In this document: in pieces, positions 2,924 through 15,184 of the stretch
Position numbering within the stretch: position 1 is the first letter of the stretch
How the letters are laid out: each line of letters opens with the position of its first letter
The notes under the pieces: model-generated
The model's input: only the letters and a program-made list of their open reading frames with translations
What the model was told of the DNA's origin: nothing
Databases searched by the model: none
Made by a program: the position numbers and the translations under genes
Virus record (IMG/VR): IMGVR_UViG_3300024518_003647
Span: 1-25,109 of that record
DNA from: a virus
Length of the DNA stretch: 25,109 bases
Strand: one strand, 5' to 3'

Positions 2924-3288
2924 CACGGACCCTCATATACGGCGCCACTGTGATCGTTCTCAGAAACAGAAACAGCCAAGAGGAGCGGCCCGAGCTGCGT
3001 GATCGTGAGGAGATCCCAGATCCATCGAGCGATATTTTCGGAGGTTGGATTGTCGAGTCCATCAACATGGTTGAGATATTTATGATCGACCTCACAAAAA
3101 ATCAACTGATCCCAGATTGCATCGATCACCCCAAAATCAACGAGCCATCCCAAATGAGGATCGGGCGAGCCATCGAGCGTAATCATGGCAGTAAAATTGT
3201 GCCCGTGGATCCCGTGGCACTTATGATCTGGCGGAGTCATCGGCAGAGAATGCGCCGCCTCGAATTTGTAAATTCTGTAGATTTTCAT
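2923..3288 (-). CDS. queD: 6-carboxy-5,6,7,8-tetrahydropterin synthase (QueD/PTPS family)
   Basis: QueD converts 7,8-dihydroneopterin triphosphate to 6-carboxytetrahydropterin, the second step towards preQ0, the 7-deazaguanine precursor used for queuosine and for some phage DNA modifications. The 121-aa length matches the family. Zinc ligands are visible as His13 (FEAAHSL) and His28/His30 (HGIHGH), the catalytic Cys as Cys24, the Asp69-His70 pair in CEVDHKYLN, and the substrate-binding Glu110 in SVSENDHS. NPTSENIA (80-87) is also typical. ATG 3288 forms an ATGA overlap with the recT-like stop; an ATG seven codons upstream is less likely. No queC, queE, folE or DNA transglycosylase gene is seen in the window. 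Confidence 0.9.
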   Translation of the reverse strand: MKIYRIYKFEAAHSLPMTPPDHKCHGIHGHNFTAMITLDGSPDPHLGWLVDFGVIDAIWDQLIFCEVDHKYLNHVDGLDNPTSENIARWIWDLLTITQLGPLLLAVSVSENDHSGAVYEGP

Positions 3289-4202
3289 GCTGCCAATCGA
3301 TCTTTGCATTCGTCTTTTTTGATTTTGATCAACTCAAAAAATCGAGGCCGAGCCTCGAGCGCGGCCCGCCAGACATCCGCCAGGCCGTTGACGGAGGTTT
3401 GGTCGGACATTTCGGATAGCCAATAATTGATCACGTTGAGATCGCTGGTGTTTTGTTGGAGTTGATCCGTCGAGAGTTCGGTCATCGACGAGACGGAGAT
3501 CATCTTTTTAAAATCCTCTCGGTCGAGTCCAACCTCCCGCAATGCCGCATGTATTCCACGGCTGGCCTTTTTCCAATCGTCGCCTCGTTCGGGCTCGGGC
3601 TCGGGTTCGGGCTCGATGGGTTGTGCCTTTTTTTCTCGCATCGTCGAAACGATCGATGCCTTCTTGACCTCCTCCAATCTCGGCGGAGGTGTGGGCTCGG
3701 AGCCCGCCAGCTCATCGGGATCATAAAGCCCGAGCGCCACATCGGGAGCATACCAACGAGCGCCATTCATCATCGCCCTAGAAAACAGCATGTTGCGCGG
3801 AAACTTTTTCCAGGTTGGATTTGAGAGCAGGCCGGCTTGACTGGCGTCGGACATCGAAAACGAGGACTCTCCGATCTTCGATTCGGCACTCGGCGGGCCC
3901 TCAAAAAAGATGATGTCGCAGGCTGTCTCCGACCAATTGACGCGGTACTGTATACCGGCCCGCTTGATCATGGCGGCGACGAGGTTTGCAGAAAGCGTGA
4001 TCTTGCCTTTGATCACGTGGATCGAGGTCATCGCCTGGATCGGTGCGATCCCAAGCTCGGCACCGGCGGCGATTTTTACCATTGCTTGCGCCGCTTCGCT
4101 GGCGTCGGAAAAAAAGCCGGAGGCGCTAGCCATCCGTGCGAATTGTTCCAGCTCGGAAATGTTGGTTGGCACGATGCCACCGGAATGTTTAACGATTTCC
4201 AT
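3285..4202 (-). CDS. RecT-like single-strand annealing protein
   Basis: The 305-aa product looks like a RecT-superfamily recombinase, which coats single-stranded DNA and anneals complementary strands during phage recombination and repair. Residues 20-85 carry the hallmark of this branch: FARMASASGFFSD, AAGAELGIAPIQAMTSIHVI, then KGKITLSANLVAAMIKRAG. Around 155-180 comes FSRAMMNGARWYAPD with a nearby YDPDEL. A Pro/Glu linker near residues 205-220 (encoded by tandem 6-base repeats) leads to a helical C-terminal domain. ATG 4202 follows GGAGAAA in the conserved 90-bp leader; longer forms would translate the leader terminator. No exonuclease partner is adjacent, but a DEDD exonuclease lies on the divergent operon at 7649. 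Confidence 0.8.
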   Translation of the reverse strand: MEIVKHSGGIVPTNISELEQFARMASASGFFSDASEAAQAMVKIAAGAELGIAPIQAMTSIHVIKGKITLSANLVAAMIKRAGIQYRVNWSETACDIIFFEGPPSAESKIGESSFSMSDASQAGLLSNPTWKKFPRNMLFSRAMMNGARWYAPDVALGLYDPDELAGSEPTPPPRLEEVKKASIVSTMREKKAQPIEPEPEPEPERGDDWKKASRGIHAALREVGLDREDFKKMISVSSMTELSTDQLQQNTSDLNVINYWLSEMSDQTSVNGLADVWRAALEARPRFFELIKIKKDECKDRLAA

Positions 4203-4292
4203 TTTCGTTTCTCCGTTTGGGTTTGAGGTTGGGCACAAAAAACCCGGGTAGCCTGCGAGAGCCACCCGATGACCTGTCGCTGGTCGGGCTTA
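4203..4292 (-). repeat. 90-bp stop-to-start intergenic element, copy A
   Basis: The element runs from the TAA stop of the 105-aa gene to the base before the recT-like ATG. It holds a short hairpin, an intrinsic terminator, the segment GTGCCCAACCTCAAACCC and the Shine-Dalgarno GGAGAAA. Copy B at 4608-4697 has the same length and about ten differences, most of them inside stems and pairing-preserving. It sits before the annealing-protein gene and so probably sets its level. Confidence 0.85.
4237..4268 (-). terminator. Intrinsic terminator within copy A
   Basis: Minus-strand CGGGTGGC (4268-4261) pairs fully with GCTACCCG (4252-4245), including one G-U pair, around the loop TCTCGCAG; GG and six Ts (4242-4237) follow. 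It lies between the 105-aa gene and the recT-like gene. No promoter is evident between it and the next start, so partial read-through must be assumed. Confidence 0.75.
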
Positions 4293-4607
4293 TGAGAGCG
4301 ATTTTATCAAATAGCGGCCTGACAAAAATCGCCGATCCTTTTGTTTTTGCCACTCGATCACGTCTTCCGGTGACTCGGTTTTCGCTGGAAAATAATCCTG
4401 ATTCTCGATCCACCATGACGCGTTGGAAATGTTCTTTTCGAGAACATCGAGTGCGCTCTGCACTTTTTTAACTTCTGCGTCGGCACCGGCTTTTGCCATG
4501 CCGATGATCATGCCCGCCATATAGTTTTTGATGGATTTCAGATTCTCGTCTCGCAAAGATGTTGCCCAATCGATTTGTTTTTTTGAGCCGTACATTTTGA
4601 TTTGCAT
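4290..4607 (-). CDS. Hypothetical early protein, 105 aa
   Basis: Function unknown. The protein starts MQIKMYGSKKQIDWATSLRD and is predicted mostly helical, with a conserved-looking NISNASWWIENQDYF segment near residues 60-75 and a basic C-terminal end. Small phage proteins with a 'G..KQI.WA..LR' start and a later 'WWI' or 'FWI' motif are common near recombination genes, but I know no established role. ATG 4607 follows the GGAGAAA of the repeated leader; upstream in-frame codons would read the leader itself. Its TAA stop is the first triplet of leader copy A. It lies second in the leftward early operon. Confidence 0.7.
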   Translation of the reverse strand: MQIKMYGSKKQIDWATSLRDENLKSIKNYMAGMIIGMAKAGADAEVKKVQSALDVLEKNISNASWWIENQDYFPAKTESPEDVIEWQKQKDRRFLSGRYLIKSLS

Positions 4608-4697
4608 TTTGTTTTCTCCGTTTGGGTTTGAGGTTGGGCACAAAAAACCCGAACAGCCTGCGAGAGCTGCTCGATGACCTGTCGCAGGCCGGGCTTA
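4608..4697 (-). repeat. 90-bp stop-to-start intergenic element, copy B
   Basis: Same architecture as copy A: it begins with the TAA stop of the 43-aa gene and ends immediately before ATG 4607. The outer regions are nearly identical to copy A, while the terminator stem carries changed bases on both arms that keep it paired. An ancestral duplication of stop, terminator and leader is the simplest explanation. Confidence 0.85.
4642..4673 (-). terminator. Intrinsic terminator within copy B
   Basis: Minus-strand CGAGCAGC (4673-4666) pairs with GCTGTTCG (4657-4650), including one G-U pair, around the same loop TCTCGCAG as copy A, then GG and six Ts (4647-4642). Relative to copy A, a G-C pair has become A-T and a T-A pair has become C-G. 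Confidence 0.75.
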
Positions 4698-4826
4698 TCG
4701 GTTTGTTTTTTTCGCCGGCTTGGGAGCCAGTCCTAGATAAGCGCGGCGTTGGCTGGCGGTGGGTTTTGGTAGGTTGAGTTCGCGTTTTTTCTTTTGCAGG
4801 ATGGCCATTTTTTTCGTGTCGTTCAT
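4695..4826 (-). CDS. Small basic protein, 43 aa
   Basis: First gene of the leftward early operon, function unknown. The product is very rich in Lys and Arg (MNDTKKMAILQKKKRELNLP, then a segment ending KPAKKTNR), so it may bind nucleic acid. ATG 4826 has GGAGAAA seven bases upstream in the same leader sequence (CCCAAACGGAGAAACGAAATG) that serves the next two genes, which supports this as the real start even though the frame stays open to 4928. The TAA stop opens leader copy B. Confidence 0.65.
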   Translation of the reverse strand: MNDTKKMAILQKKKRELNLPKPTASQRRAYLGLAPKPAKKTNR

Positions 4827-4845
4827 TTCGTTTCTCCGTTTGGGG
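4827..4845 (-). promoter_or_regulatory. Third copy of the early leader/Shine-Dalgarno block
   Basis: The minus strand reads CCCCAAACGGAGAAACGAA directly before ATG 4826. The last 18 bases match the end of leader copies A and B almost perfectly, but the terminator part is absent here. All three leftward genes from 4826 to 3285 therefore share one ribosome-binding block. Confidence 0.7.
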
Positions 4846-4872
4846 TTTGTTTGTTTCCGGGGTACGAGATCA

Positions 4873-5267: not shown

Positions 5268-5501
5268 ATGAAAAATGATGCGACTATTTATCTGAGATTA
5301 GAAACAGCTCTGAAAGAGGGACTCCGAAAGATCGCCGAGGTTGAAGGCCGTTCGCTTTCCAACCTCCTCCAAAAAATGATCCGTGACCTTATAAAGGAGA
5401 GATCCGATGTCGATGAAAAAGAAAATCAGATTACACATCGCTCGCCAGACATGGCCGGTGATCACGAACGGATCGGAGATCGCGGAGGCTGTAGGCTGTG
5501 A
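5268..5501 (+). CDS. Ribbon-helix-helix (Arc/MetJ-type) regulator
   Basis: The 77-aa product begins MKNDATIYLRLETALKEGL followed by an RSLSNLLQKMIRDLIK helix. That is the beta-strand, helix, G-R-S-L/S turn, helix pattern of ribbon-helix-helix repressors, which bind operator DNA as dimers with the N-terminal strand in the major groove. ATG 5268 has a strong AAAGGAG site six bases upstream; an in-frame TTG at 5214 is inside the promoter. After about residue 46 the polar tail overlaps the next gene out of frame for 95 bases, so only the first 45-50 residues look like the folded domain. It is probably a repressor of its own operon. Confidence 0.75.
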   Translation: MKNDATIYLRLETALKEGLRKIAEVEGRSLSNLLQKMIRDLIKERSDVDEKENQITHRSPDMAGDHERIGDRGGCRL

Positions 5502-5694
5502 TCGCTCGACCTTGAAAAGAGCGATCAAAGAAATGGAATCCGAGGGAACCCTCGAGCGACGACAGGTCGATCGAAACAACTCTCAATACATCCTCCTCTC
5601 CCCTCCCGGATCGACGCTGGAATTTCTGGCCAGGTCCAAAAAAATCATCACCGAGGATTTTGCCAAATGGAAAAAAAAGAGCGATACCAAATGA
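5407..5694 (+). CDS. Winged-helix-type DNA-binding protein
   Basis: The 95-aa product contains a helix-turn-helix at about residues 20-45 (NGSEIAEAVGCDRSTLKRAI) followed by KEMESEGTLERRQVDRNNSQYILL. Helix, turn, helix then a beta-wing with 'G.L.RR' is the usual winged-helix arrangement. ATG 5407 has AAAGGAG about ten bases upstream; ATG 5413 is a possible alternative. The start lies inside the ribbon-helix-helix gene and the stop overlaps the next start as ATGA. It probably regulates early transcription or assists replication initiation next to the helicase; which of these is not shown. Confidence 0.65.
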   Translation: MSMKKKIRLHIARQTWPVITNGSEIAEAVGCDRSTLKRAIKEMESEGTLERRQVDRNNSQYILLSPPGSTLEFLARSKKIITEDFAKWKKKSDTK

Positions 5695-5873
5695 CAGATA
5701 CAAAATACAACACGGCAGAAGGTCGTCGGCTTCTGGTGCTTTTCGTCGCCGCCTCGGGCGCTGCAAATATACATCGGATGGCGATCGCTGGCACGATGGC
5801 ATCCGAGTTCTCTGCCTGGCAAAAAAAATACATGGGCTCGGAGACGACGGCGCCGGAATGGGCAGACCGATGA
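5691..5873 (+). CDS. Hypothetical protein, 60 aa, between winged-helix and helicase genes
   Basis: Function unknown. It begins MTDTKYNTAEGRRLLVLFV, has a moderately hydrophobic centre and ends SAWQKKYMGSETTAPEWADR. ATG 5691 overlaps the previous stop and its own stop overlaps the helicase start, both as ATGA. The first six codons resemble the start of the helicase gene at the DNA level (ATGACAGATAC-N-AAA), as if the start region had been duplicated. Its coupling to the helicase suggests a replication accessory role, but no helicase-loader motif such as a P-loop is present. Confidence 0.6.
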   Translation: MTDTKYNTAEGRRLLVLFVAASGAANIHRMAIAGTMASEFSAWQKKYMGSETTAPEWADR

Positions 5874-7204
5874 CAGATACCAAAACCAAAACACCACATG
5901 CCCAACACTCGGAGCCGTATTTGTTGGGCTCCATGATCGCTCATCCGCACATAATACCGGAGGTCATCGCAACGATCCGGCCCGAATATCTGCACAACGA
6001 TCTCGGGCGCAAGGCCTTCGAGCTGATCTGTAAACACGCCGCGGATTTTTTGGCATCCGAGGATAGCGAATTTGAGATCTACCTCCTCCCATTTGTTGCC
6101 TCTAACGATTGGGTTCTCCTCGAATTTCTCACCTCCATCCGACAAAGCGCGCCGTCGCCTTCGAGCTGGTCTCGACATGCAACCCTAATCAGACATGCCT
6201 ACCTCCGTCGCCAGCTCGCCGAGGCAGGCGACGAGGCCCGAGAAAACGGAGATCCGCGGGCGTTGATTTCCGATCTCGTCGAGACCGAAAAATCCTTGAG
6301 CGGCGATGATAGCTCGCTGCTCGACTCGAGATCTGTACTCTCCTCGGCGATGGAGGAGATCCAAAAAGCGTACAACAACAAAGGCCCGATCGGAGTGTCC
6401 ACCGGATTCGGCACCATCGACGACGAGATCGGAGCCCTCGAGCCGGACTGTCTTTACGTCCTCGCCGGTCGGCCATCGATGGGAAAATCGGCATTGGCGC
6501 TCAACATGCTCCTGCACATCGCGTCTAAAAAACAGGCTCCGCCGTTATACATATCTTTGGAGATGTCCGGTTCGGATCTCGGCATGAGGGCGCTGGCATC
6601 CGAGTCGGGCGTCTCGATCCGATCCATGAAAAACGGTCAACTCACCGAGCGCGACATCGATCGGCTCACAAAAGCGACCGGCGTGTTGGCCTCGTTTCCG
6701 TGGCTCGTCGAGGACGTTGCCAGGTTAACCGTCTCCGAGGTCAAAGGTGCATATCATCGAGCGGCACAACGCGCCGGAGACGCGCCCTCCGTTTTGTTTG
6801 TCGATCACTTGCATCTGATGGACGCCGACGACGAAAAAGCGGAGGACATAAAGGCCCTCGGGCAAATCACTCGCGACCTCAAAAAGTTGAGCAGAGAACT
6901 GCACATCCCGATCGTCCTCCTTTGCCAGCTCAACCGCGGGCTCGAAAAAAGGAGCGACCGTCGACCGATTGCCTCGGACCTCCGAGGCTCCGGCGAGATC
7001 GAAGAAAATGCGGTCACCATCATGGCGTTGTACAGAGACGCCGTGTACAACGAGGACGCCGATCCAAGAGACGCCGAATTGCTCATTCTGAAAAACCGCA
7101 ACGGATCACTCGGCAACATTCCGCTGAGGTGGGAAGGCCCGATCACCACATTTTTTTCCACCACAAACCGTGCCAACCCCGGCGCCGCTATGGGGATGAG
7201 ATGA
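5870..7204 (+). CDS. dnaB: Replicative DNA helicase, DnaB family
   Basis: This is the hexameric ring helicase that unwinds the phage replication fork 5' to 3'. The 444-aa length matches DnaB. The N-terminal domain starts PHAQHSEPYLLGSMIAHPH, the usual 'E..LLG.m' opening. The C-terminal RecA-like domain has Walker A GRPSMGKS (200-207), ISLEMSG (H1a region, about 228-234), Walker B LFVDHLHLM (309-317, where DYLQL is common), LLCQLNR (350-356) and LRGSGEIEENA (371-381) with the conserved Arg. ATG 5870 overlaps the preceding stop as ATGA. No primase or polymerase is in the window, so the phage probably recruits host enzymes or encodes them elsewhere. Confidence 0.93.
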   Translation: MTDTKTKTPHAQHSEPYLLGSMIAHPHIIPEVIATIRPEYLHNDLGRKAFELICKHAADFLASEDSEFEIYLLPFVASNDWVLLEFLTSIRQSAPSPSSWSRHATLIRHAYLRRQLAEAGDEARENGDPRALISDLVETEKSLSGDDSSLLDSRSVLSSAMEEIQKAYNNKGPIGVSTGFGTIDDEIGALEPDCLYVLAGRPSMGKSALALNMLLHIASKKQAPPLYISLEMSGSDLGMRALASESGVSIRSMKNGQLTERDIDRLTKATGVLASFPWLVEDVARLTVSEVKGAYHRAAQRAGDAPSVLFVDHLHLMDADDEKAEDIKALGQITRDLKKLSRELHIPIVLLCQLNRGLEKRSDRRPIASDLRGSGEIEENAVTIMALYRDAVYNEDADPRDAELLILKNRNGSLGNIPLRWEGPITTFFSTTNRANPGAAMGMR

Positions 7205-7235: not shown

Positions 7236-7652
7236 ATGAGCAAAGAGAGCGAAGCCATTTTGAAAGAGGGCGAAGCCATTTTGAAAGGAGAAGGCTGTGC
7301 GGTGTTTGTATTTCCCGACGGAGGAGAACTCCACGGTCCGCCGGAGATAGTCAAAGAGTGGTCGGATCAACTTGATCGATTCAAAGAATATGAAAAGAAC
7401 GGAGGGACGAACACATATTTCGAGTTCGTCGATAATGAAATGTACGAACGTTTTCTCGATCGAGTGAGAGGAAAGCATTTGACGAAGCTTCCTGATCACA
7501 TCCGATGTGAGGGATGTCAAAACCAATCCGATGAAGGGGGATTCGTGTGTCGATTTGAGCACGAGTTCTTTGACGACGATCTGAATAGCATCGTCGGATT
7601 CTTTGTTCGAAACCACGAACTTAGATGTCCTGGGATGAGGCCCTATAAATGA
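7236..7652 (+). CDS. Hypothetical protein, 138 aa, with C-terminal cysteines
   Basis: Not recognised. The N-terminus carries a duplicated EAILKEG/EAILKGEG heptad encoded by a 21-bp tandem repeat (7249-7290). The middle is charged and mixed alpha/beta. The C-terminal third has CEGC near 92-95, then a single Cys in FVCRFEHEF and another in ELRCPG, which might form a zinc site. GGGAG lies upstream of ATG 7236. Its stop overlaps the exonuclease start as ATGA. Codon use is more A/T-rich than that of the helicase, so it may have been acquired separately. Confidence 0.55.
   Translation: MSKESEAILKEGEAILKGEGCAVFVFPDGGELHGPPEIVKEWSDQLDRFKEYEKNGGTNTYFEFVDNEMYERFLDRVRGKHLTKLPDHIRCEGCQNQSDEGGFVCRFEHEFFDDDLNSIVGFFVRNHELRCPGMRPYK
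7249..7290 (+). repeat. 21-bp tandem duplication inside the 138-aa gene
   Basis: Two adjacent copies of GCGAAGCCATTTTGAAAG with three further bases per unit; in frame, it duplicates one heptad and so does not disturb translation. Confidence 0.8.
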
Positions 7653-8428: not shown

Positions 8429-8708
8429 CCGTGTTTTTTTGGATCCCGGCGATCTGGGTTGGATTTGGCGGCGAGCCCAACAAGAGGAGATCTCAATCTC
8501 TGAGGTCGTCGAAGATGCCGTACTATCGGCGATGGAGATCCCAAAAAAAGGGAGGCTCCCGGCATCGACGGGGATCCCAACCGCGCTGTTTTTTCGCGCC
8601 AGTTTTCTCTACCAGCTCGCGAGCCATCTTAAAGAAAGCGCTCGCAACGACCTAGTAAAATACGGTTATATTCGTTGGGCCATCCGTCGGGCTCGGACGA
8701 TCTCGTGA
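8415..8708 (+). CDS. Hypothetical protein, 97 aa, with possible ribbon-helix-helix-like N-terminus
   Basis: Function unknown. After MKIVDRVFLDPGDLGWIWRR comes EEISISEVVEDAVLSAMEI, a strand-helix-helix order that faintly resembles ribbon-helix-helix proteins; the C-terminus is basic and ends IRRARTIS. ATG 8415 with GAGGAAA upstream lies 14 bases inside the end of the exonuclease gene. The stop overlaps a GTG start of the next gene. Confidence 0.55.
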   Translation: MKIVDRVFLDPGDLGWIWRRAQQEEISISEVVEDAVLSAMEIPKKGRLPASTGIPTALFFRASFLYQLASHLKESARNDLVKYGYIRWAIRRARTIS

Positions 8709-8893
8709 AAAAGTTTAGGCTCTGCCTCCGGTGTGATCGGGAATTTCTCTCGGATGGAATCCACAATCGCCTATGTGAGAAATGCCGGATTGCATCGTCG
8801 CACGTCCGCCGCGCCATCATCGGAAAAGGCCGAACGAGCGAGCGGATCAATCCCTCCGGAGGTATCGAAAAAACAGATGCAGAGGAAACATAA
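8705..8893 (+). CDS. Small zinc-ribbon-like protein, 62 aa
   Basis: The protein starts at GTG 8705, which overlaps the previous stop as GTGA. It has CLRC at residues 7-10 and CEKC at 24-27 in the segment CLRCDREFLSDGIHNRLCEKC (split here by position), a four-Cys zinc-ribbon pattern widespread in small phage proteins. The rest is basic and polar. Likely a nucleic-acid-binding accessory protein; the specific role is unknown. Its stop is part of the first copy of the CATAA...TTATCGGAC motif. Confidence 0.65.
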   Translation: MKKFRLCLRCDREFLSDGIHNRLCEKCRIASSHVRRAIIGKGRTSERINPSGGIEKTDAEET

Positions 8894-8912
8894 GACAAGA
8901 TTATCGGACGCA
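8889..8912 (+). repeat. Start-associated motif, copy 1
   Basis: CATAA, seven bases, then TTATCGGACGCA. CATAA contains the stop of the zinc-ribbon gene; AGGAGG follows directly, ahead of ATG 8923. Confidence 0.85.
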
Positions 8913-8922
8913 AGGAGGATAC

Positions 8923-9297
8923 ATGCTTGACAAAGAAGAGCTTTTCAAAAAAATACAAAGCGCAAGAAATATGCTGATAGAGAATGATGGGTTTTTTTCT
9001 TTAGCTGACGAAAGCTTGTTCGTTGAAAGGCTTGTAGGGGGAATGCTCTTTCATCATGGAAACATGATGCACAGAGATCTACTTGAGGCGTTTTGCTTCG
9101 ACCTCGACAGCAACAGTCGTCGAAAGTATGGAAGGCTTATATCGCGCGCTCTTCGATGGCTCCGGGATCGAGAGGTCATTACCGTCATCAGTGGGACGCC
9201 TCGTAAATATGTTTACGCATATTGTCCTGAGAGAAGAAAATGGACCGAGGAGCAAAACGAAAAAACGCGCCTCAGGATCGAAGCAAGAAACAAGTAA
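8923..9297 (+). CDS. Hypothetical protein, 124 aa, possibly winged-helix
   Basis: First gene of the motif-flanked cassette. ATG 8923 has AGGAGG seven bases upstream. Residues 1-25 are helical (MLDKEELFKKIQSARNML). Around 55-115 a segment with DLLEAFCFDLDSNSRRKYG, then ISRALRWLRDREVITVI, and a beta-like SGTPRKYVYAYC looks like a winged helix with a recognition helix and wing. The C-terminus is highly charged. No family is recognised. The cassette genes are more A/T-rich and contain fewer GATC sites than the flanking helicase and methyltransferase. Confidence 0.6.
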   Translation: MLDKEELFKKIQSARNMLIENDGFFSLADESLFVERLVGGMLFHHGNMMHRDLLEAFCFDLDSNSRRKYGRLISRALRWLRDREVITVISGTPRKYVYAYCPERRKWTEEQNEKTRLRIEARNK

Positions 9298-9298
9298 A

Positions 9299-9321
9299 CA
9301 TAATTTCCATTATCGGACGCA
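9299..9321 (+). repeat. Start-associated motif, copy 2
   Basis: CATAA, six bases, then TTATCGGACGCA, immediately upstream of ATG 9326. No separate AGGAGG is present; GGA in the motif is the nearest Shine-Dalgarno-like sequence. Confidence 0.85.
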
Positions 9322-9325
9322 AATC

Positions 9326-9553
9326 ATGAGAAAAAGCAACTTCATACCAAAAAGAAAAATTCCCGGGTACTTCTACGAGGACGAAAAAGGCCTATGGTTT
9401 TGGTGTATTGAAGGAGGCATTCGGCTCAAGATCAGGACGCCAGAAAAAAACGAACGGAAACGAGGTATCTATGATCTCGTATCGGAGCAACTTGAGATCG
9501 TCGGAAATCGGACGAACCTTTCAATTCATCGATTGAAAACATTCTGGATTTAA
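9326..9553 (+). CDS. Hypothetical protein, 75 aa
   Basis: Function unknown. The protein is strongly basic at the start (MRKSNFIPKRKIPGYFYEDE), has an aromatic strand LWFWCIEGGIRLKI and ends in a helix with IHRLKTFWI. ATG 9326 is five bases after motif copy 2, which is why the shorter start is chosen over in-frame upstream codons that lie inside the previous gene. Confidence 0.55.
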   Translation: MRKSNFIPKRKIPGYFYEDEKGLWFWCIEGGIRLKIRTPEKNERKRGIYDLVSEQLEIVGNRTNLSIHRLKTFWI

Positions 9554-9576
9554 CATAAGACAGATTATCGGACGCA
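9554..9576 (+). repeat. Start-associated motif, copy 3
   Basis: CATAA, six bases, TTATCGGACGCA then AGGAGG. Nearly identical to copy 1 over more than 30 bases, including the GACA(A)GA spacer. Confidence 0.85.
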
Positions 9577-9588
9577 AGGAGGAAAAAC

Positions 9589-9822
9589 ATGCCACTCAAA
9601 AATGATAAAAGGCCTTTTAGCGAAGACACTGTAAGAGCCCTCGCAGATTTGGGGATTCTCGCAGATGAAGCACTCAACCATGCAAGCTACGTCGGAGATG
9701 TAGAGCTCTCCAACGAGCTAGAAGCAAGAGCCCAACACCTGGAAAAGGTGCTACGCCGGCTAGATGGGCTCGCAAGAGGTCACCTGAACACGATTGATTT
9801 TCTCACAGGAAAGTTGCCATAA
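9589..9822 (+). CDS. Hypothetical helical protein, 77 aa
   Basis: Function unknown. Following MPLKNDKRPFSEDTVRALA, the protein is almost entirely predicted helix with a heptad-like LSNELEARAQHLEKVLRRL segment (about 42-60), suggesting a coiled-coil or dimer. ATG 9589 has AGGAGG eight bases upstream. The stop codon forms part of motif copy 4. Confidence 0.6.
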   Translation: MPLKNDKRPFSEDTVRALADLGILADEALNHASYVGDVELSNELEARAQHLEKVLRRLDGLARGHLNTIDFLTGKLP

Positions 9823-9840
9823 TCGTAATTATCGGACTCA
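9818..9840 (+). repeat. Start-associated motif, copy 4
   Basis: CATAA (with the stop of the preceding gene), six bases, TTATCGGACTCA, followed by TTAGGAG and ATG 9854. Confidence 0.85.
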
Positions 9841-9853
9841 CTTAGGAGAACAG

Positions 9854-10060
9854 ATGCCAAAACCTCTTTCATGCAAAGACTTTACAACAGAAGAATACAA
9901 TGCTCTTTTTTCTGCGATCACAACTGCTGCACATAACCGGGGAAGCGAGGGACCGTATTGTGAATATGAGTTGCTGGAAGACACGCCAAGAACAACACTC
10001 GTTGTCGTTTTGATCGAAGCGTTGCACGAGCATGGATACAAGATCAAGAAGATTACATAA
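9854..10060 (+). CDS. Hypothetical protein, 68 aa
   Basis: Function unknown. It begins MPKPLSCKDFTTEEYNALFS; the middle is acidic (EGPYCEYELLED) and the end is a hydrophobic then basic helix, TLVVVLIEALHEHGYKIKKI. ATG 9854 follows TTAGGAGAACAG. The small size, acidic patch and position in a variable cassette would fit a host-takeover or anti-defence protein, but nothing in the sequence demonstrates this. Confidence 0.6.
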   Translation: MPKPLSCKDFTTEEYNALFSAITTAAHNRGSEGPYCEYELLEDTPRTTLVVVLIEALHEHGYKIKKIT

Positions 10061-10078
10061 CCATAGTTATCGGACACA
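10056..10078 (+). repeat. Start-associated motif, copy 5
   Basis: CATAA (containing the previous stop), six bases, TTATCGGACACA, then AA and ATG 10081 of the methyltransferase. Like copy 2 it lacks a separate AGGAGG. Confidence 0.85.
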
Positions 10079-10080
10079 AA

Positions 10081-11439
10081 ATGAAACTATTACAAGGCGA
10101 TAGCCTCGACGTACTCGCAACATTAGACGATGAATCGATCGACGCTCTTGTGTGTGATCCACCTAGTGGCATCGCCTTCATGGGTAAAGAATGGGACAAA
10201 GACAAAGGCGGTCGTGATGGTTGGATCGATTGGCTCGAGGAGATCATGGTGCAAGCCTTGCGCGTCCTCAAGCCCGGAGCCCATGCCTTGATCTGGGCTT
10301 TGCCTCGGACCTCCCATTGGACGGCAACCGCCCTGGAAAATTCGGGCTTCGAAATCCGGGATAGGCTCGCTCATGTGTTCGGATCCGGGTTTCCAAAAAA
10401 TCACGATGTCTCGAAGGCCATCGACAAGGCGGCCGGAGCAGAGCGAGAGGTTGTTGGAATTTCGCCAAGACACGGAGGCGGTGCAAAGGTCTTTGAAACG
10501 CAAGGCGGCAAAGGGTTTAGAACAAACGAACAGCCCGACATCACCGCCCCCGCAACACCCGACGCAAAACGCTGGCAAGGTTGGGGCACAGCCCTGAAAC
10601 CCGCGGTCGAGGACTGGTGGCTTTGCCGCAAGCCGTTGCAAGGCACGATCGCCGCTAACGTTTTGAGCCATGGCACGGGCGCCTTGAACATCGATGAATC
10701 TCGGATCAAGCATGACGAAGATTGCAAAATGCTGGCACCGCAAAAAGATCCAGGCTCGGAAAAGTTACAGCAAGGCGGACGCCGCAAGGACGTCTTAGAA
10801 CTCAAGCCGAACGGCCGATGGCCGGCACACCTCATCTTGAGCCACGCGCCCGGCTGTGGTGATGTGTGTGTCGAGGGTTGCCCGATCCTGTTGATGGGCG
10901 AGCAGAGTGGGGAGGGGGGGAGTGTTGGTGGTGAAAGAGGATCAGGGGCTTTTGGGGCTAAGGGGGAAGGGTGGAAAAAAAGAGAAGATCACAACGACGA
11001 AGGCACCGCCGCCCGATACTTTCTAAACCTCGAACACGATCCTTTTTTATATTGCCCGAAGCCCGGCAACGAGGAGCGCAACGCTGGTCTTGCTGGCGAG
11101 ATCGGCACCATCGACGACGGGCGCAACACGCCGATCGACAACCCATATCAACGCGGTGAGACGGAGCGGCGCAACGTCCATCCGACCGTAAAGCCCGTGG
11201 ATCTAATGCGCTGGCTTTGCAAATTGATCACGCCGCCAGGTGGCACGGTCCTCGATCCATTTATGGGATCTGGTACCACCGGGATCGCCGCACGTCTCGA
11301 GGGTTTTGATTTTTTGGGCATCGAGCGAGAGGCCGAATACATCGAGATCGCCCGGGCTCGAATCGAGTATGCAGTAAAATACGACCTCCGCCGAGGAGGA
11401 AAAACAAAGATCGATCCGCGTCAAATGAGTATGTTTTAA
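10081..11439 (+). CDS. DNA methyltransferase, beta-class (N6-adenine or N4-cytosine type)
   Basis: Transfers a methyl group from S-adenosylmethionine to an exocyclic amine in DNA. In this 452-aa protein the catalytic motif (IV) comes first, CDPPSGIAF with DPPS at 26-29. The SAM-binding motif I is near the C-terminus, DPFMGSGTTG at 392-401, preceded by HPTVKPVDLMRWL (motif X). This IV-to-I order defines the beta class. The intervening 300 residues, with FGSGFPKNHDVSKAIDKA and a long variable region, would contain the target recognition domain. The fourth position of motif IV is Ser where Tyr, Phe or Trp is normal. It may protect phage DNA from host restriction; target unknown. It is the last gene of the rightward operon. 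Confidence 0.88.
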   Translation: MKLLQGDSLDVLATLDDESIDALVCDPPSGIAFMGKEWDKDKGGRDGWIDWLEEIMVQALRVLKPGAHALIWALPRTSHWTATALENSGFEIRDRLAHVFGSGFPKNHDVSKAIDKAAGAEREVVGISPRHGGGAKVFETQGGKGFRTNEQPDITAPATPDAKRWQGWGTALKPAVEDWWLCRKPLQGTIAANVLSHGTGALNIDESRIKHDEDCKMLAPQKDPGSEKLQQGGRRKDVLELKPNGRWPAHLILSHAPGCGDVCVEGCPILLMGEQSGEGGSVGGERGSGAFGAKGEGWKKREDHNDEGTAARYFLNLEHDPFLYCPKPGNEERNAGLAGEIGTIDDGRNTPIDNPYQRGETERRNVHPTVKPVDLMRWLCKLITPPGGTVLDPFMGSGTTGIAARLEGFDFLGIEREAEYIEIARARIEYAVKYDLRRGGKTKIDPRQMSMF

Positions 11440-11441
11440 GC

Positions 11442-11457
11442 GTGCCAATGTTGGCAC
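11442..11457. repeat. Perfect palindrome after the methyltransferase stop
   Basis: GTGCCAATGTTGGCAC is a 7-bp stem with a two-base loop (or six with four), starting two bases after the stop. AAAAAA follows on the plus strand, so it is not a plus-strand terminator. It could be an operator or an mRNA 3'-end stabiliser. Confidence 0.6.
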
Positions 11458-11534
11458 AAAAAACCTCACAGGAGATCTACGCAGGGAATGCGGGTTGTGT
11501 GGTAAGCAGCGAAAAATCCATATGTTGCATGATG

Positions 11535-11562
11535 GCCGGAGGTGGAAACGCCTCCGGCTTTT
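11535..11562 (+). terminator. Intrinsic terminator of the rightward operon
   Basis: GCCGGAGG (11535-11542) pairs perfectly with CCTCCGGC (11551-11558), an 8-bp stem with an 8-base loop, followed by TTTT. It lies between the convergent methyltransferase and endolysin genes and would stop rightward transcription before it enters the late genes. The minus-strand side lacks a T-run. Confidence 0.75.
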
Positions 11563-11568
11563 GTGTGT

Positions 11569-12051
11569 CTACTTGTTGAGCGCTCCGAAGCCGAGGATCC
11601 GCTCGTTGATTTTGCGCCGCATTTTTTTGACGCCGCCATTTGGATGACCTCCAACATTGCCCTCGATCGTCTGGAGGTCGGACCGTTGATCGCCGACCTC
11701 CAACACAAAGCCAACATGATCCGGACGTTCTCCTCCCAACGAAAACAGGATGAGATCGCCGGGCTCGGGCTCCGCCTCCGAATATAAAAACCACATATCA
11801 TGATGATACAACCAATCCCACAACCACGGAACATAGGAGATCCCAGATCCATGATCGTGAAGAATCGGATTGTCGGCTTGCTCCAAACACCAACTCACGA
11901 ACGCCGCGCAGTAGGCATCGCCGGGTTTCATGGTGTATCGAGAATCACGAACCGATGCTCGATACTCGGCGATCCGTCCGTTGCTATCCTCGTTGGATGA
12001 TTTGTCTTCGCGCACTGCCAGCTCGCCGGTTGCAATCTCAAGATGTTTCAT
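11569..12051 (-). CDS. CHAP/NlpC-like endolysin
   Basis: Probably the cell-wall amidase or endopeptidase that ends infection. The 160-aa product has the papain-like arrangement: catalytic Cys in DAYCAAFVSWCLEQ (about residue 47), catalytic His in RPDHVGFVL (about 114), and a polar residue in TIEGNVG. PGDLILF just before the His is characteristic. No cell-wall binding domain, signal peptide or membrane segment is present, so export would depend on a holin. ATG 12051 overlaps the upstream stop as ATGA; ATG 12087 is possible but embedded in the previous gene. This is the last gene of the late operon in this direction. Confidence 0.8.
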   Translation of the reverse strand: MKHLEIATGELAVREDKSSNEDSNGRIAEYRASVRDSRYTMKPGDAYCAAFVSWCLEQADNPILHDHGSGISYVPWLWDWLYHHDMWFLYSEAEPEPGDLILFSLGGERPDHVGFVLEVGDQRSDLQTIEGNVGGHPNGGVKKMRRKINERILGFGALNK

Positions 12052-12455
12052 CGCTTCCCATTTCTCCGGCGCCGCCGGAATCTCCATTCAAAAATCTTGT
12101 CCACCTTTTTAGACATCCGATCGATCTTACGTTCGAGCCTGGCGGCGGCGTGGTTTTGCGCTTTGACATCGGATTTGAGAACCTCAAACGCGGTCATCGA
12201 AGGGACGGAGGTTTTGATTAGATCGATCGTCGAAGGATGCGGATGTTTCGAGTGTTGAATAATCGATTCCTTGATCTGCGAATCAACCTCAGATCTCGAT
12301 GGCTTAGAGTACAGCCACCAGCCACCGGCGGCAATTGCGGAGATGAGCCCAAACATGGTGGCATACATCTCGACACGTTCGCGCATCGAGCGTTGTACCT
12401 CGAGATTGAAAGTGTTCTCACCCATCGATGACCGATCTGAACTTTGCTTACTCAT
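12048..12455 (-). CDS. Single-span membrane protein, lysis cluster
   Basis: The 135-aa product has a polar N-terminus, one membrane segment (about residues 32-50, MFGLISAIAAGGWWLYS) and a long charged helical C-terminus ending in an Arg-rich tail (EWRFRRRRRNGKR). The layout of one transmembrane helix plus an outward or inward coiled-coil fits an inner-membrane spanin component or another lysis accessory protein. ATG 12455 overlaps the previous stop as ATGA; a second Met ten codons later is possible. The gene lies directly before the endolysin. I cannot assign a family. Confidence 0.6.
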   Translation of the reverse strand: MSKQSSDRSSMGENTFNLEVQRSMRERVEMYATMFGLISAIAAGGWWLYSKPSRSEVDSQIKESIIQHSKHPHPSTIDLIKTSVPSMTAFEVLKSDVKAQNHAAARLERKIDRMSKKVDKIFEWRFRRRRRNGKR

Positions 12456-12802
12456 TTGATGATCCCTATCGCGATGATGCCGCCGGCGCAAACGCCGCCG
12501 ACGAGTCCAGTGAGTAGCCAGGGGAGGGTACAATTGCAAGCTCGGATCTTAGATAAAGCCTGCCTTGTTTTCTCGCGCTGTCGACGCCGGGCTCGCTGCG
12601 AATCGGAGAGGAGGGAATGCAATTTCAACAACGTTTTTTTGTACTCAATGATTTTGAGCTTGTAAGATTTGGCACGAATTTTCAAACGCCGAACTTTGTT
12701 TAGATCCGCGGCGGAGAAACAAACGCCGCCACATGGCTGGCCTGCGCCGAGCAACATCAATGCAAAACACGCCAGGCACAATTTAGATATCGTCGATATC
12801 AT
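12452..12802 (-). CDS. Membrane protein with signal-like N-terminus, coiled coil and C-terminal helix
   Basis: The 116-aa product starts MISTISKLCLACFALMLLGA, a signal-peptide-like stretch followed by several cysteines (QPCGGVC). A strongly basic helical coil spans about residues 35-85, and a C-terminal membrane helix follows, LLTGLVGGVCAGGIIAIGII. N-terminal export signal plus coil plus C-terminal anchor is the layout of a single-protein (u-) spanin, which fuses inner and outer membranes, but no canonical lipobox is visible. A protein of unknown function is the alternative. It overlaps the upstream gene by 20 bases and the downstream gene by ATGA. Confidence 0.55.
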   Translation of the reverse strand: MISTISKLCLACFALMLLGAGQPCGGVCFSAADLNKVRRLKIRAKSYKLKIIEYKKTLLKLHSLLSDSQRARRRQREKTRQALSKIRACNCTLPWLLTGLVGGVCAGGIIAIGIIK

Positions 12803-13100
12803 CGAGCAGATCCTTTTTTTGTTCCTCCAATGATCCGACCGGCGGCGTCTCCGCTTCGATGCGAGCGGCGAAGTCGATGGCATTTTGTTTTTTCTTTCCC
12901 GTCTTTTCCAATTCGTTGATCGTCTTGTTCAGGCGATCGTCGAAATCCGCAGCCTTGTTGATGTGTTGAGCTGTCGCGGTGGCGGCGCCGCCGCCGAGGA
13001 ACACGGCAAGGAGGAGATCCCAAGCTTGGAGAAAAACACAAACCACCGCGAGACCAACAACGATCGCCAGGCCGCCGAGTACCCATTTATTTTTTAGCAC
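12783..13100 (-). CDS. Putative holin-like membrane protein, 105 aa
   Basis: Two adjacent hydrophobic segments (about residues 6-23, WVLGGLAIVVGLAVVCVF, and 26-40, AWDLLLAVFLGGGAA) precede a charged helical C-terminus ending LLDDIDDI. Two membrane helices with a charged tail next to an endolysin suits a holin, which forms the pore in the inner membrane. GTG 13100 has GGAGGT five bases upstream, making it a better start than upstream codons inside the preceding gene. It overlaps the previous gene by 14 bases. Confidence 0.5.
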   Translation of the reverse strand: MLKNKWVLGGLAIVVGLAVVCVFLQAWDLLLAVFLGGGAATATAQHINKAADFDDRLNKTINELEKTGKKKQNAIDFAARIEAETPPVGSLEEQKKDLLDDIDDI

Positions 13101-13711: not shown

Positions 13712-15184
13712 TCATCTTTTCCAACGATAGTCAACCCAAACCACGGGCATATATATAGTTTCTTGGGCTGAGGGCGAACTTCCTTGATCTTTATTGCGGC
13801 AAGCAATCACCGAATCCGCCGCCATATCCGCATCAATCGTAAGATCGCTCCCCTTGTTTCCGGCTGTAGACGTCGGAGGGCTCACTGTTGCAATCACCGA
13901 TGCATCGGATAAAATCTCAATGATCGGAGTAGTATTACTAGAATCTTTTGCCCATCCTATCCCCACGATCGTCGCCACGAGAGGAACTTGATAACCTCGA
14001 TCATTCCCGAGAGCCGATGGGTCTAGATACAGATGCCCGATGTTGAGATATTCTCCCTCATCCAATGCATAGGCGGTCATAAACGCGACATGCAAACACT
14101 CTACAGACAGCCATTTGGATCGCGTTGTATCTCGAAACATAGCACGCGCGATCGTCGTGTCGAAATAGCGATCGCCATCTAAGTATGTTCCACCGGTTGG
14201 AGGACTCGAGAGCGCGCCATAGTCGGCACTGCCGCTCGATGGGAGGTTGCCAATCGTGATCCGTTTTTTGTTGTTGGAATCCGCGGCGTCCTCGATGAGT
14301 AAAAAATCCGAACCCGTCGGGGTTGCCTTTGCCGTGATGGCCGAGATCTCCGCCGCCGTGTCATCGTGGATCGCTGTGGTATCCGTGCCCGCTCCGCCGC
14401 TCGATGGGAGGTTGCCGATCGTGATCCGTTTCTTGTTGTTGGAATCCGCGGCGTCCTCGATGAGTAAAAAGTCGGAGCCCGTTGGGGTTGCCTTGGCTGC
14501 GATGACCGAGATCTCCGCCGCCGTGTTGTCATGGATCGCCGTGGTATCCGAACCGGCGGAGGAGGGGAGATCGCCGATCGTGATCCGCTTCTTGCTGTGA
14601 GATGCCGCGGCATCTTCGATGAGTAAAAAGTCCGAACCCGTCGGAGTAACCTTTGCCGTGATGGCGGAGATCTCCGCCGATGTGTCATCGTGGATCGCTG
14701 TGGTATCCGTGCCCGCTCCGCCGCTCGATGGGAGGTTGCCGATCGTGATCCGTTTCTTGTTGTTGGAATCCGCGGCGTCCTCGATGAGTAAAAAGTCCGA
14801 GCCCGTCGGGGTTGCCTTTGCCGTGATGACCGAGATCTCTGCCGCCGTGTCATCGTGGATCGCCGTGGTATCCGTGCCCGCTCCGCCGCTCGATGGGAGG
14901 TTGCCGATCGTGATCCGCTTCTTGCTGTTGGAATCCGCGGCGTCCTCGATGAGTAAAAAGTCCGAGCCCGTCGGGGTTGCCTTTGCCGTGATGACCGAGA
15001 TCTCCGCCGCCGTGTCATCGTGGATCGCCGTGGTATCCGTGCCCGCTCCGCCGGTGATGTCGGAGATCGTGCCCGTGTCGTCGATCTGTTTTAGATGTTT
15101 GTCGGCTGAATCCACAAACAAAAAAAGCTGGCCGCTCGCTGGCGTCGGCGGTGTTGTGGATCCTGTAAATCTAATTCGTGACAT
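13712..15184 (-). CDS. Repeat-containing tail-fibre-like protein
   Basis: The 490-aa product probably forms an extended fibre or appendage. After a 45-residue start (MSRIRFTGSTTPPTPASGQ onward) come five near-identical 55-residue repeats at about residues 46-318, each with DTTAIHDDTAAEIS, ATPTGSDFLLIEDAADS and KKRITIGNLPSSG. 'FLLIEDA.DS..KKRIT...L' is known from phage tail and fibre proteins. The remaining 170 residues are Gly/Ser/Thr-rich and beta-like, with DYGALSSPPTGG and YMPVVWVDYRWK at the end, and probably form the distal domain. ATG 15184 directly follows the previous stop (TGA T ATG). Confidence 0.75.
   Translation of the reverse strand: MSRIRFTGSTTPPTPASGQLFLFVDSADKHLKQIDDTGTISDITGGAGTDTTAIHDDTAAEISVITAKATPTGSDFLLIEDAADSNSKKRITIGNLPSSGGAGTDTTAIHDDTAAEISVITAKATPTGSDFLLIEDAADSNNKKRITIGNLPSSGGAGTDTTAIHDDTSAEISAITAKVTPTGSDFLLIEDAAASHSKKRITIGDLPSSAGSDTTAIHDNTAAEISVIAAKATPTGSDFLLIEDAADSNNKKRITIGNLPSSGGAGTDTTAIHDDTAAEISAITAKATPTGSDFLLIEDAADSNNKKRITIGNLPSSGSADYGALSSPPTGGTYLDGDRYFDTTIARAMFRDTTRSKWLSVECLHVAFMTAYALDEGEYLNIGHLYLDPSALGNDRGYQVPLVATIVGIGWAKDSSNTTPIIEILSDASVIATVSPPTSTAGNKGSDLTIDADMAADSVIACRNKDQGSSPSAQETIYMPVVWVDYRWKR
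14231..15049 (-). repeat. Five tandem 165-bp repeats inside the fibre gene
   Basis: Five copies of a 165-bp unit (one 6 bp shorter at the third/fourth junction) in the same frame; for example, the plus-strand word ATCCGTGCCCGCTCC recurs at 14705, 14870 and 15035, exactly 165 bp apart. Differences are mainly synonymous or conservative. The high DNA identity makes unit number prone to change by recombination. Confidence 0.9.

Follow-up and report, generated by a model that had tools for sequence, protein, structure and literature searches.

The locus analyzed here raises the question of what a short motif does before each of five successive genes of a phage: does it control the expression of these genes, or does it mark borders at which they can be exchanged? 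The locus lies in an IMG/VR virus contig of 25,109 bases (the whole of this stretch is called the window below), which encodes a terminase, a RecT-like protein, a DnaB helicase, an exonuclease-like protein, an endolysin, and a baseplate-like structural protein. The carrier is an unclassified tailed phage, and we found no DNA-level match to the contig in phage records. Scans for relatives of DnaB, the exonuclease, RecT, and the first gene of the array (c1) found the same phage only as one other fragment (L126), which is 99.88% identical, reaches 2.5 kb further left, and ends at window base 9660. It has copies 1-3 of the motif unchanged and no additional copy. The rightward operon of interest starts with genes for RHH-like (5268) and wHTH-like (5407) proteins and DnaB, and ends at a strong terminator-like hairpin (11534-11559, + strand) located after a DNA methyltransferase gene. 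The array (8883-10077) is found near the end of this operon, between the gene of a small CxxC protein and the methyltransferase gene.

Copies of the motif and their conservation

The motif reads CATAA-N6/7-TTATCGGAC-N-CA. It occurs five times, always on the + strand, and is absent from the rest of the 25.1-kb contig. The TTATCGGAC part lies at 8901, 9310, 9565, 9829, and 10067, each time followed by N-CA, and its gap to CATAA is N6 in copies 2-5 and N7 in copy 1. There is no further exact copy of TTATCGGAC on either strand of the contig and no one-mismatch copy on the + strand. For comparison, none of 300 dinucleotide-shuffled versions of the window had a 9-mer with more than 3 copies within 1.3 kb. 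The original prediction had placed one copy at each gene junction, before genes starting at 8923, 9326, 9589, 9854, and 10081, and none elsewhere; this holds across the contig, and all five starts are correct. It had also rightly noted that, in copies 1, 4, and 5, the preceding gene ends with a stop codon inside CATAA; in copies 2 and 3 this stop is a few bases upstream of CATAA, within what is described below as an 11-bp arm. Two further details are borne out: copies 1 and 3 are nearly identical over more than 30 bases (33 columns agree, with one indel), and AGGAGG is missing from copies 2 and 5.

Pairwise comparison of the five copies gives 0/50 differences in CATAA and 0/110 at the fixed core positions, while TTATCGGACNCA has 7/120, every one of them at N. 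The spacer differs at 45/60, which is the 75% of random sequence, and the 10 bases on each side of the motif differ at 59/100 and 63/100. Two conserved blocks around a random centre indicate selection on the blocks rather than the trace of a duplicated leader. Such a pattern, with conserved arms flanking a random centre, characterizes tyrosine-recombinase sites and, together with a distance between core and start codon that varies from 2 to 13 nt across copies, it argues against the translational or transcriptional control site that had been proposed. The RBS is outside the core in copies 1, 3, and 4. A hairpin between ATAA and TTAT had been suggested as well, but folding of the leader RNAs gave z-scores from -1.1 to +0.8 and predicted no such stem: the inverted halves belong to the two Xer arms, of which they are the innermost bases, and not to an RNA hairpin.

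The window has other repeats. On the - strand (4194-4860), a second leader repeat, CAAACCC(C)AAACGGAGAAA, precedes the genes starting at 4826, 4607, and 4202 (the last being RecT) and is not an Xer site; two of its copies have a terminator-like hairpin right after the previous TAA (a 115-bp repeat, 84% identical). Five tandem copies of a 165-bp unit (14231-15053) are found inside a 490-aa ORF of the - strand (13712-15184), two genes start with ATGACAGATACNAAA (5691-5892), and a 21-bp tandem repeat (7242-7283) lies within the first codons of the gene at 7236.

Resemblance to chromosomal dif sites

The dif site is where bacteria separate joined chromosomes, and it is cut by the recombinases XerC and XerD. 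We took as its signature an 11-bp arm, a centre of 6 bp (6-8), a second 11-bp arm, and an inner ATAA/TTAT dyad, together with an XerD arm near TTATGTTAAAT / TTATGTNNACT, and both features are seen in the motif. Read on the minus strand, it consists of an 11-bp XerC-type arm (GNGTCCGATAA), a variable 6-bp centre, and an 11-bp XerD-type arm; the layout is 11-6-11 in sites 2-5 and 11-7-11 in site 1, with the inner dyad in all five. In window coordinates, and on the + strand, site 1 (8883-8911) has an XerD-type arm at 8883-8893 (AGGAAACATAA, the weakest of the five), a 7-bp centre at 8894-8900 (GACAAGA), and an XerC-type arm at 8901-8911 (TTATCGGACGC). The others, in the same order and on the same strand, are site 2 (9293-9320; AGTAAACATAA - TTTCCA - TTATCGGACGC), site 3 (9548-9575; ATTTAACATAA - GACAGA - TTATCGGACGC), site 4 (9812-9839; AGTTGCCATAA - TCGTAA - TTATCGGACTC), and site 5 (10050-10077; AGATTACATAA - CCATAG - TTATCGGACAC).

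Published pdif sites are made of an XerC arm, a 6-bp spacer, and the XerD arm TTATGTTAAAT or TTATGTTAATT (PMC13141974; PMC7399989). On the minus strand copy 3 reads GCGTCCGATAA-TCTGTC-TTATGTTAAAT, and its XerD arm is identical to the published one at 11/11 positions. The six outer bases of the XerD arm, which were outside every search pattern, match AGTT[AT]A at 23/30 positions over the five copies, site 1 alone being weak. Such a match was reached in 0/200,000 random draws of five, and in 0/400,000 with a weight matrix built from bacterial sites (joint P < 5e-6).

A chromosomal dif is defined by its single copy, its orientation, and its position at the switch of GC skew. Among the matches listed for CATAA-N6/7-TTATCGGACNCA in bacterial genomes there are many phyla, some of the matches being probably due to chance; those listed have the outer bases AGTT[AT]A and centres TATATA or TGTATA, neither of which was part of the search. 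Whole-genome searches returned exactly one such site in 12/12 bacterial genomes, and the reversed control returned none. Among the matches listed, 36 loci had a good outer arm and sufficiently long flanks; their mean GC skew was +0.045 on the side of the XerD arm and -0.053 on that of the XerC arm, and 30/36 shared one polarity (Wilcoxon P = 5e-6). A Pyrinomonadaceae contig sampled over 310 kb has mostly positive skew before the site and negative skew after it; with the same sampling, a Sphingomonas contig shows no clear skew switch. In the complete chromosome of Paenibacillus psychroresistens the match is ~48.7% of the way round the record, assuming that the record starts at the origin. Since the bacterial matches are single-copy, oriented, and placed at the skew switch, the phage motif has the sequence of a dif type that real chromosomes carry.

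On this sequence evidence, the motif is very probably an Xer/dif-like site, and its most likely role is that of an Xer recombination site rather than of a translation or transcription signal. We infer that XerC and XerD would bind and recombine the five sites. The alternative role offered by the original prediction, i.e., a boundary for the exchange of cassette genes, is thus supported, the candidate boundary being a dif-like Xer site.

Pairs of dif-like sites were seen in two MAGs. In a Myxococcales MAG (L389, 408-5112), two sites of the same orientation share the centre TGTCGC and are 4.7 kb apart, which resembles what an element integrated at dif would leave. In a Gemmataceae MAG (L413, 3352-3456), two sites of opposite orientations are separated by ~100 bp.

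An exhaustive scan of IMG/VR identified the full pattern in 71 contigs, among which only L126 has more than one copy, a multi-site count that covers this XerC arm type only. The other matches have a good XerD outer arm in 38/70 cases, so single dif-like sites are common in viral contigs; by their outer-arm profile, many of these matches are dif-like sites rather than chance occurrences. Among the fetched loci (4.36 Mb in total), a scan with relaxed criteria revealed no other locus with more than two sites. The same junction was found once in L305 (5032-5060), with a stop in the XerD arm, the XerC arm, and then directly AAGGAGG and a small gene. In the related phages L057, L304, and L311, a single site lies immediately before the RBS of a gene of ~230 aa; its arms are conserved among them and its centre varies.

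Repeats of other kinds were observed in further viral contigs. L239 (IMGVR_UViG_3300050026_000207) has TTAA(A)CGGCATTGTTAAAGGAGGGATATG seven times before successive small genes over 2.5 kb (10517-13038); this repeat is absent from the rest of the 42-kb contig, usually holds the upstream stop codon, and is not dif-like. In L129 (IMGVR_UViG_3300020057_000042, 6395-7030), four small genes in a row before a related methyltransferase each start after a copy of (CAC)GACCCGAAGGAGG, which also codes for a C-terminal tail common to the preceding proteins. A GAAAGGGATGCACATG-type leader is present 4-5 times before successive genes in L265 (3826-4840) and L266. Finally, in L064 (IMGVR_UViG_3300024518_002597), an unrelated phage of 44% GC with a neighbouring IMG sample number, RTTATCGGAC occurs nine times, on both strands, in a noncoding stretch flanked by divergent genes (3107-3635). 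We rejected these nine TTATCGGAC copies as a like array, as they have neither XerD arms nor a link to gene starts.

Putative single-gene cassettes and their possible exchange

Upstream of the array, the gene of the small CxxC protein (8675-8893, + strand; phrog_13335; GC 0.543) contributes its 3' end to site 1, where the last TAA of the XerD arm is its stop. The four genes that follow, each between two sites and all on the + strand, are ORFans: c1 (8923-9297, 124 aa, GC 0.443), with its stop (9295-9297) within the XerD arm of site 2; c2 (9326-9553, 75 aa, GC 0.417, without AGGAGG), with its stop (9551-9553) within that of site 3; and c3 (9589-9822, 77 aa, GC 0.491) and c4 (9854-10060, 68 aa, GC 0.430), whose stops are the final three bases of the XerD arms of sites 4 and 5. 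The DNA methyltransferase gene (10081-11439, + strand; PF01555, phrog_67; GC 0.563) has a site at its left only and probably belongs to the phage backbone. A stop codon is therefore found inside the 11-bp XerD arm in 5/5 sites, as its last three bases (TAA) in sites 1, 4, and 5, and the RBS or the start comes after the XerC arm at every site. Hence, each cassette is one promoterless gene.

The products of c1-c4 have no credible match in Pfam, PHROGs, NCBIfam, PADLOC, or phage records. The one Pfam hit of c1 is far below the cut-off; this protein has no match in plasmids, and its predicted structure is of low confidence (pLDDT 63) and has no match in the PDB. With no relatives of the cassette products elsewhere, movement between genomes is something that we infer. 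In terms of composition, the genes with sites on both sides are AT-rich (44% GC) relative to the flanking genes (54-56% GC), and the neighbours with a site on one side have the composition of the backbone. The low GC and GATC content that had been attributed to the genes of the locus is correct for c1-c4 (GC 0.44; GATC 7.9/kb) but not for the methyltransferase gene (0.563; 16.9/kb), the averages of the contig being 0.528 and 15.7/kb. Two other small genes, both outside the array (7236-7652 and the gene at 4607), are also AT-rich, so composition alone is no proof. GATC is fourfold over-represented in the contig (15.7/kb vs 3.9 expected from base composition) and about half as frequent in the cassettes.

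We propose, with a probability of about 70%, that 8883-10077 is an array of four single-gene cassettes exchanged by the host XerCD. A cassette would extend between the centres of two adjacent sites, and would comprise the XerC arm, the ribosome-binding site, the ORF, and the XerD arm with the stop. With such a layout, a crossover in the centre would swap exactly one complete translation unit. Cassettes without a promoter of their own would depend on transcription of the phage operon upstream of them. The contig, itself incomplete, encodes no tyrosine recombinase (PF00589), so the host XerCD would have to act. These enzymes may join a circular cassette, or a replicon with a like site, to a site of the phage, and a crossover in the 6-bp centre would then insert or exchange cassettes, as in integrons with attC and in Acinetobacter plasmids with dif modules. 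Recombination of pdif sites occurs between those with identical spacers or with one differing position (PMC13141974). As the five centres all differ, the sites should rarely recombine with each other and the array should be stable, and a history of mutual exchange is not directly visible. The pair likeliest to react would be sites 1 and 3 (GACAAGA/GACAGA). No rearranged, empty, or alternative array was seen, and L126 carries sites 1-3 as they are in the window.

Xer sites could also serve the phage itself, either for integration at the host dif, as in IMEX elements, or for the resolution of circular dimers, in which case the array would stem from the duplication of one attP-like site and the genes would be passengers. 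IMEX phages do have dif mimics and no integrase of their own, the contig encodes no integrase, and single dif-like sites are common in viral contigs, as seen above. Yet one site would be enough for these functions, and there are five, at successive gene borders and with stops in their XerD arms. Integration at any of them would split the operon, and their centres differ, unlike those of simple duplicates, with the exception of sites 1 and 3. We regard this explanation as unlikely.

It is improbable that the motif is the binding site of a regulator, i.e., a stoperator-like repressor site or a start-associated sequence (SAS) controlling the transcription or the translation of each gene. Its single orientation and the short gaps near starts are reminiscent of stoperators, SAS, and the Microbacterium EC/EI repeats, and the RHH-like and wHTH-like proteins encoded at 5268 and 5407 could be taken as candidate regulators; but it matches chromosomal dif sites that are single copies at a GC-skew switch, its distance to the start is variable, neither operon has a copy near its promoter region, and the leaders do not fold. 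Very improbable, in turn, is a duplicated leader (RBS region) devoid of function, a remnant of the homologous recombination by which small genes were gained. The near-identity of copies 1 and 3 over 33 columns would fit, as would the presence of leader repeats at three opposite-strand starts of the same phage (4826, 4607, 4202) and at successive small genes of unrelated phages (four in L129, seven in L239, and four in L265). However, copies 2, 4, and 5 have all 16 fixed positions intact next to a centre and flanks that are random, a pattern not expected of simple leader copies, and copies 2 and 5 keep the arms without an RBS.

Several specific signals were tried and rejected. There are no sigma-70 promoters at the motif beyond the expectation from shuffles. 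With a T7-like or other promoter core, the start codon of copies 2 and 5 would sit at or upstream of the start of the transcript. The other strand has a sigma-28 -10 element (CCGATAA), for which inspection showed TAAA to be missing at the -35 spacing. The stoperators of cluster A phages do not fit with only five sites in 1.2 kb, none elsewhere in the incomplete contig, and no cognate repressor identified. An SAS of cluster K type includes the Shine-Dalgarno sequence and is placed 3-7 bp upstream of the start, in contrast with a core at 2-13 nt and an RBS outside it in copies 1, 3, and 4.

Comparison with known systems and implications

The gene cassette array of an integron is made of compact, promoterless, single-gene cassettes in the same orientation, with a recombination site at each junction. 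The phage array shares this layout and, unlike integrons, has no IntI, attI, or attC folding site, its sites being dif-like.

The closest known kind are the dif (pdif) modules of Acinetobacter Rep_3/OrfX plasmids (PMC13141974, PMC7399989), where small genes or gene groups lie between 28-bp sites composed of an XerC arm, a 6-bp variable spacer, and the XerD arm TTATGTTAAAT. In line with these modules, the array has no recombinase of its own, the spacers vary between sites, and c1-c4 are each between two Xer sites. However, neighbouring pdif sites are normally inverted relative to each other (C and D modules), whereas the five sites of the phage all point one way; among pdif modules, ends of the same orientation are found only in fused CD modules (PMC13141974). 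Moreover, pdif modules are carried by plasmids and the array by a tailed-phage contig. In the phage, a cassette comprises a single ORF whose stop codon falls within the XerD arm, and the XerC arm (GNGTCCGATAA) is not of the pdif type. The array is not a standard member of either dif modules or integrons.

Phages and elements of the IMEX type (CTXphi, VGJphi, TLCphi, and the gonococcal genomic island) also have dif mimics that rely on the host XerCD, and their centres often differ from that of the host dif (PMC5357621). For integration they rely on a single attP, or on two arms that fold into one; the present contig, which is incomplete, has five sites, and no prophage was seen. None of these elements is presented in the source consulted as having an array of sites between single genes (PMC5357621). 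The start-associated or intergenic repeats of actinobacteriophages (cluster K and Microbacterium EC, EF, EG, and EI; PMC3203893, PMC7302621) are, like the present motif, short, of one orientation, and placed in small gaps upstream of the starts of accessory genes, the Microbacterium EC repeat being upstream of the RBS, 21-30 bp before the start (PMC7302621). They differ in that they have other sequences, are spread over large parts of the genome, and have no reported link to dif (PMC3203893, PMC7302621). The original prediction had mentioned the start-associated repeats of mycobacteriophages, for which the resemblance holds in position and in nothing else (PMC3203893). Our search of the open-access literature retrieved no description of tailed phages with cassette arrays based on dif sites.

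How phages gain small accessory genes singly, and cleanly at gene borders, is an old question, to which the usual answers are homologous boundary sequences and illegitimate recombination (PMC3029335). The presence of dif-like sites exactly at gene borders points to a specific mechanism using enzymes that nearly every bacterium has, and suggests that this phage collects single genes as exchangeable cassettes via host recombination enzymes. Tentatively, tailed phages might practise an integron-like gene capture without a recombinase of their own, based on promoterless cassettes of the same orientation that carry the host dif sequence, have their stop in the site, and are moved by the host XerC/XerD. 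If true, dif modules, described from Acinetobacter plasmids, would occur in phages too, the accessory genes of phages would be linked to the chromosome terminus and to plasmids, and exchangeable phage genes could be recognized by a sequence signature. In addition, the idea that other unexplained start-associated repeats of phages are recombination sites becomes testable.
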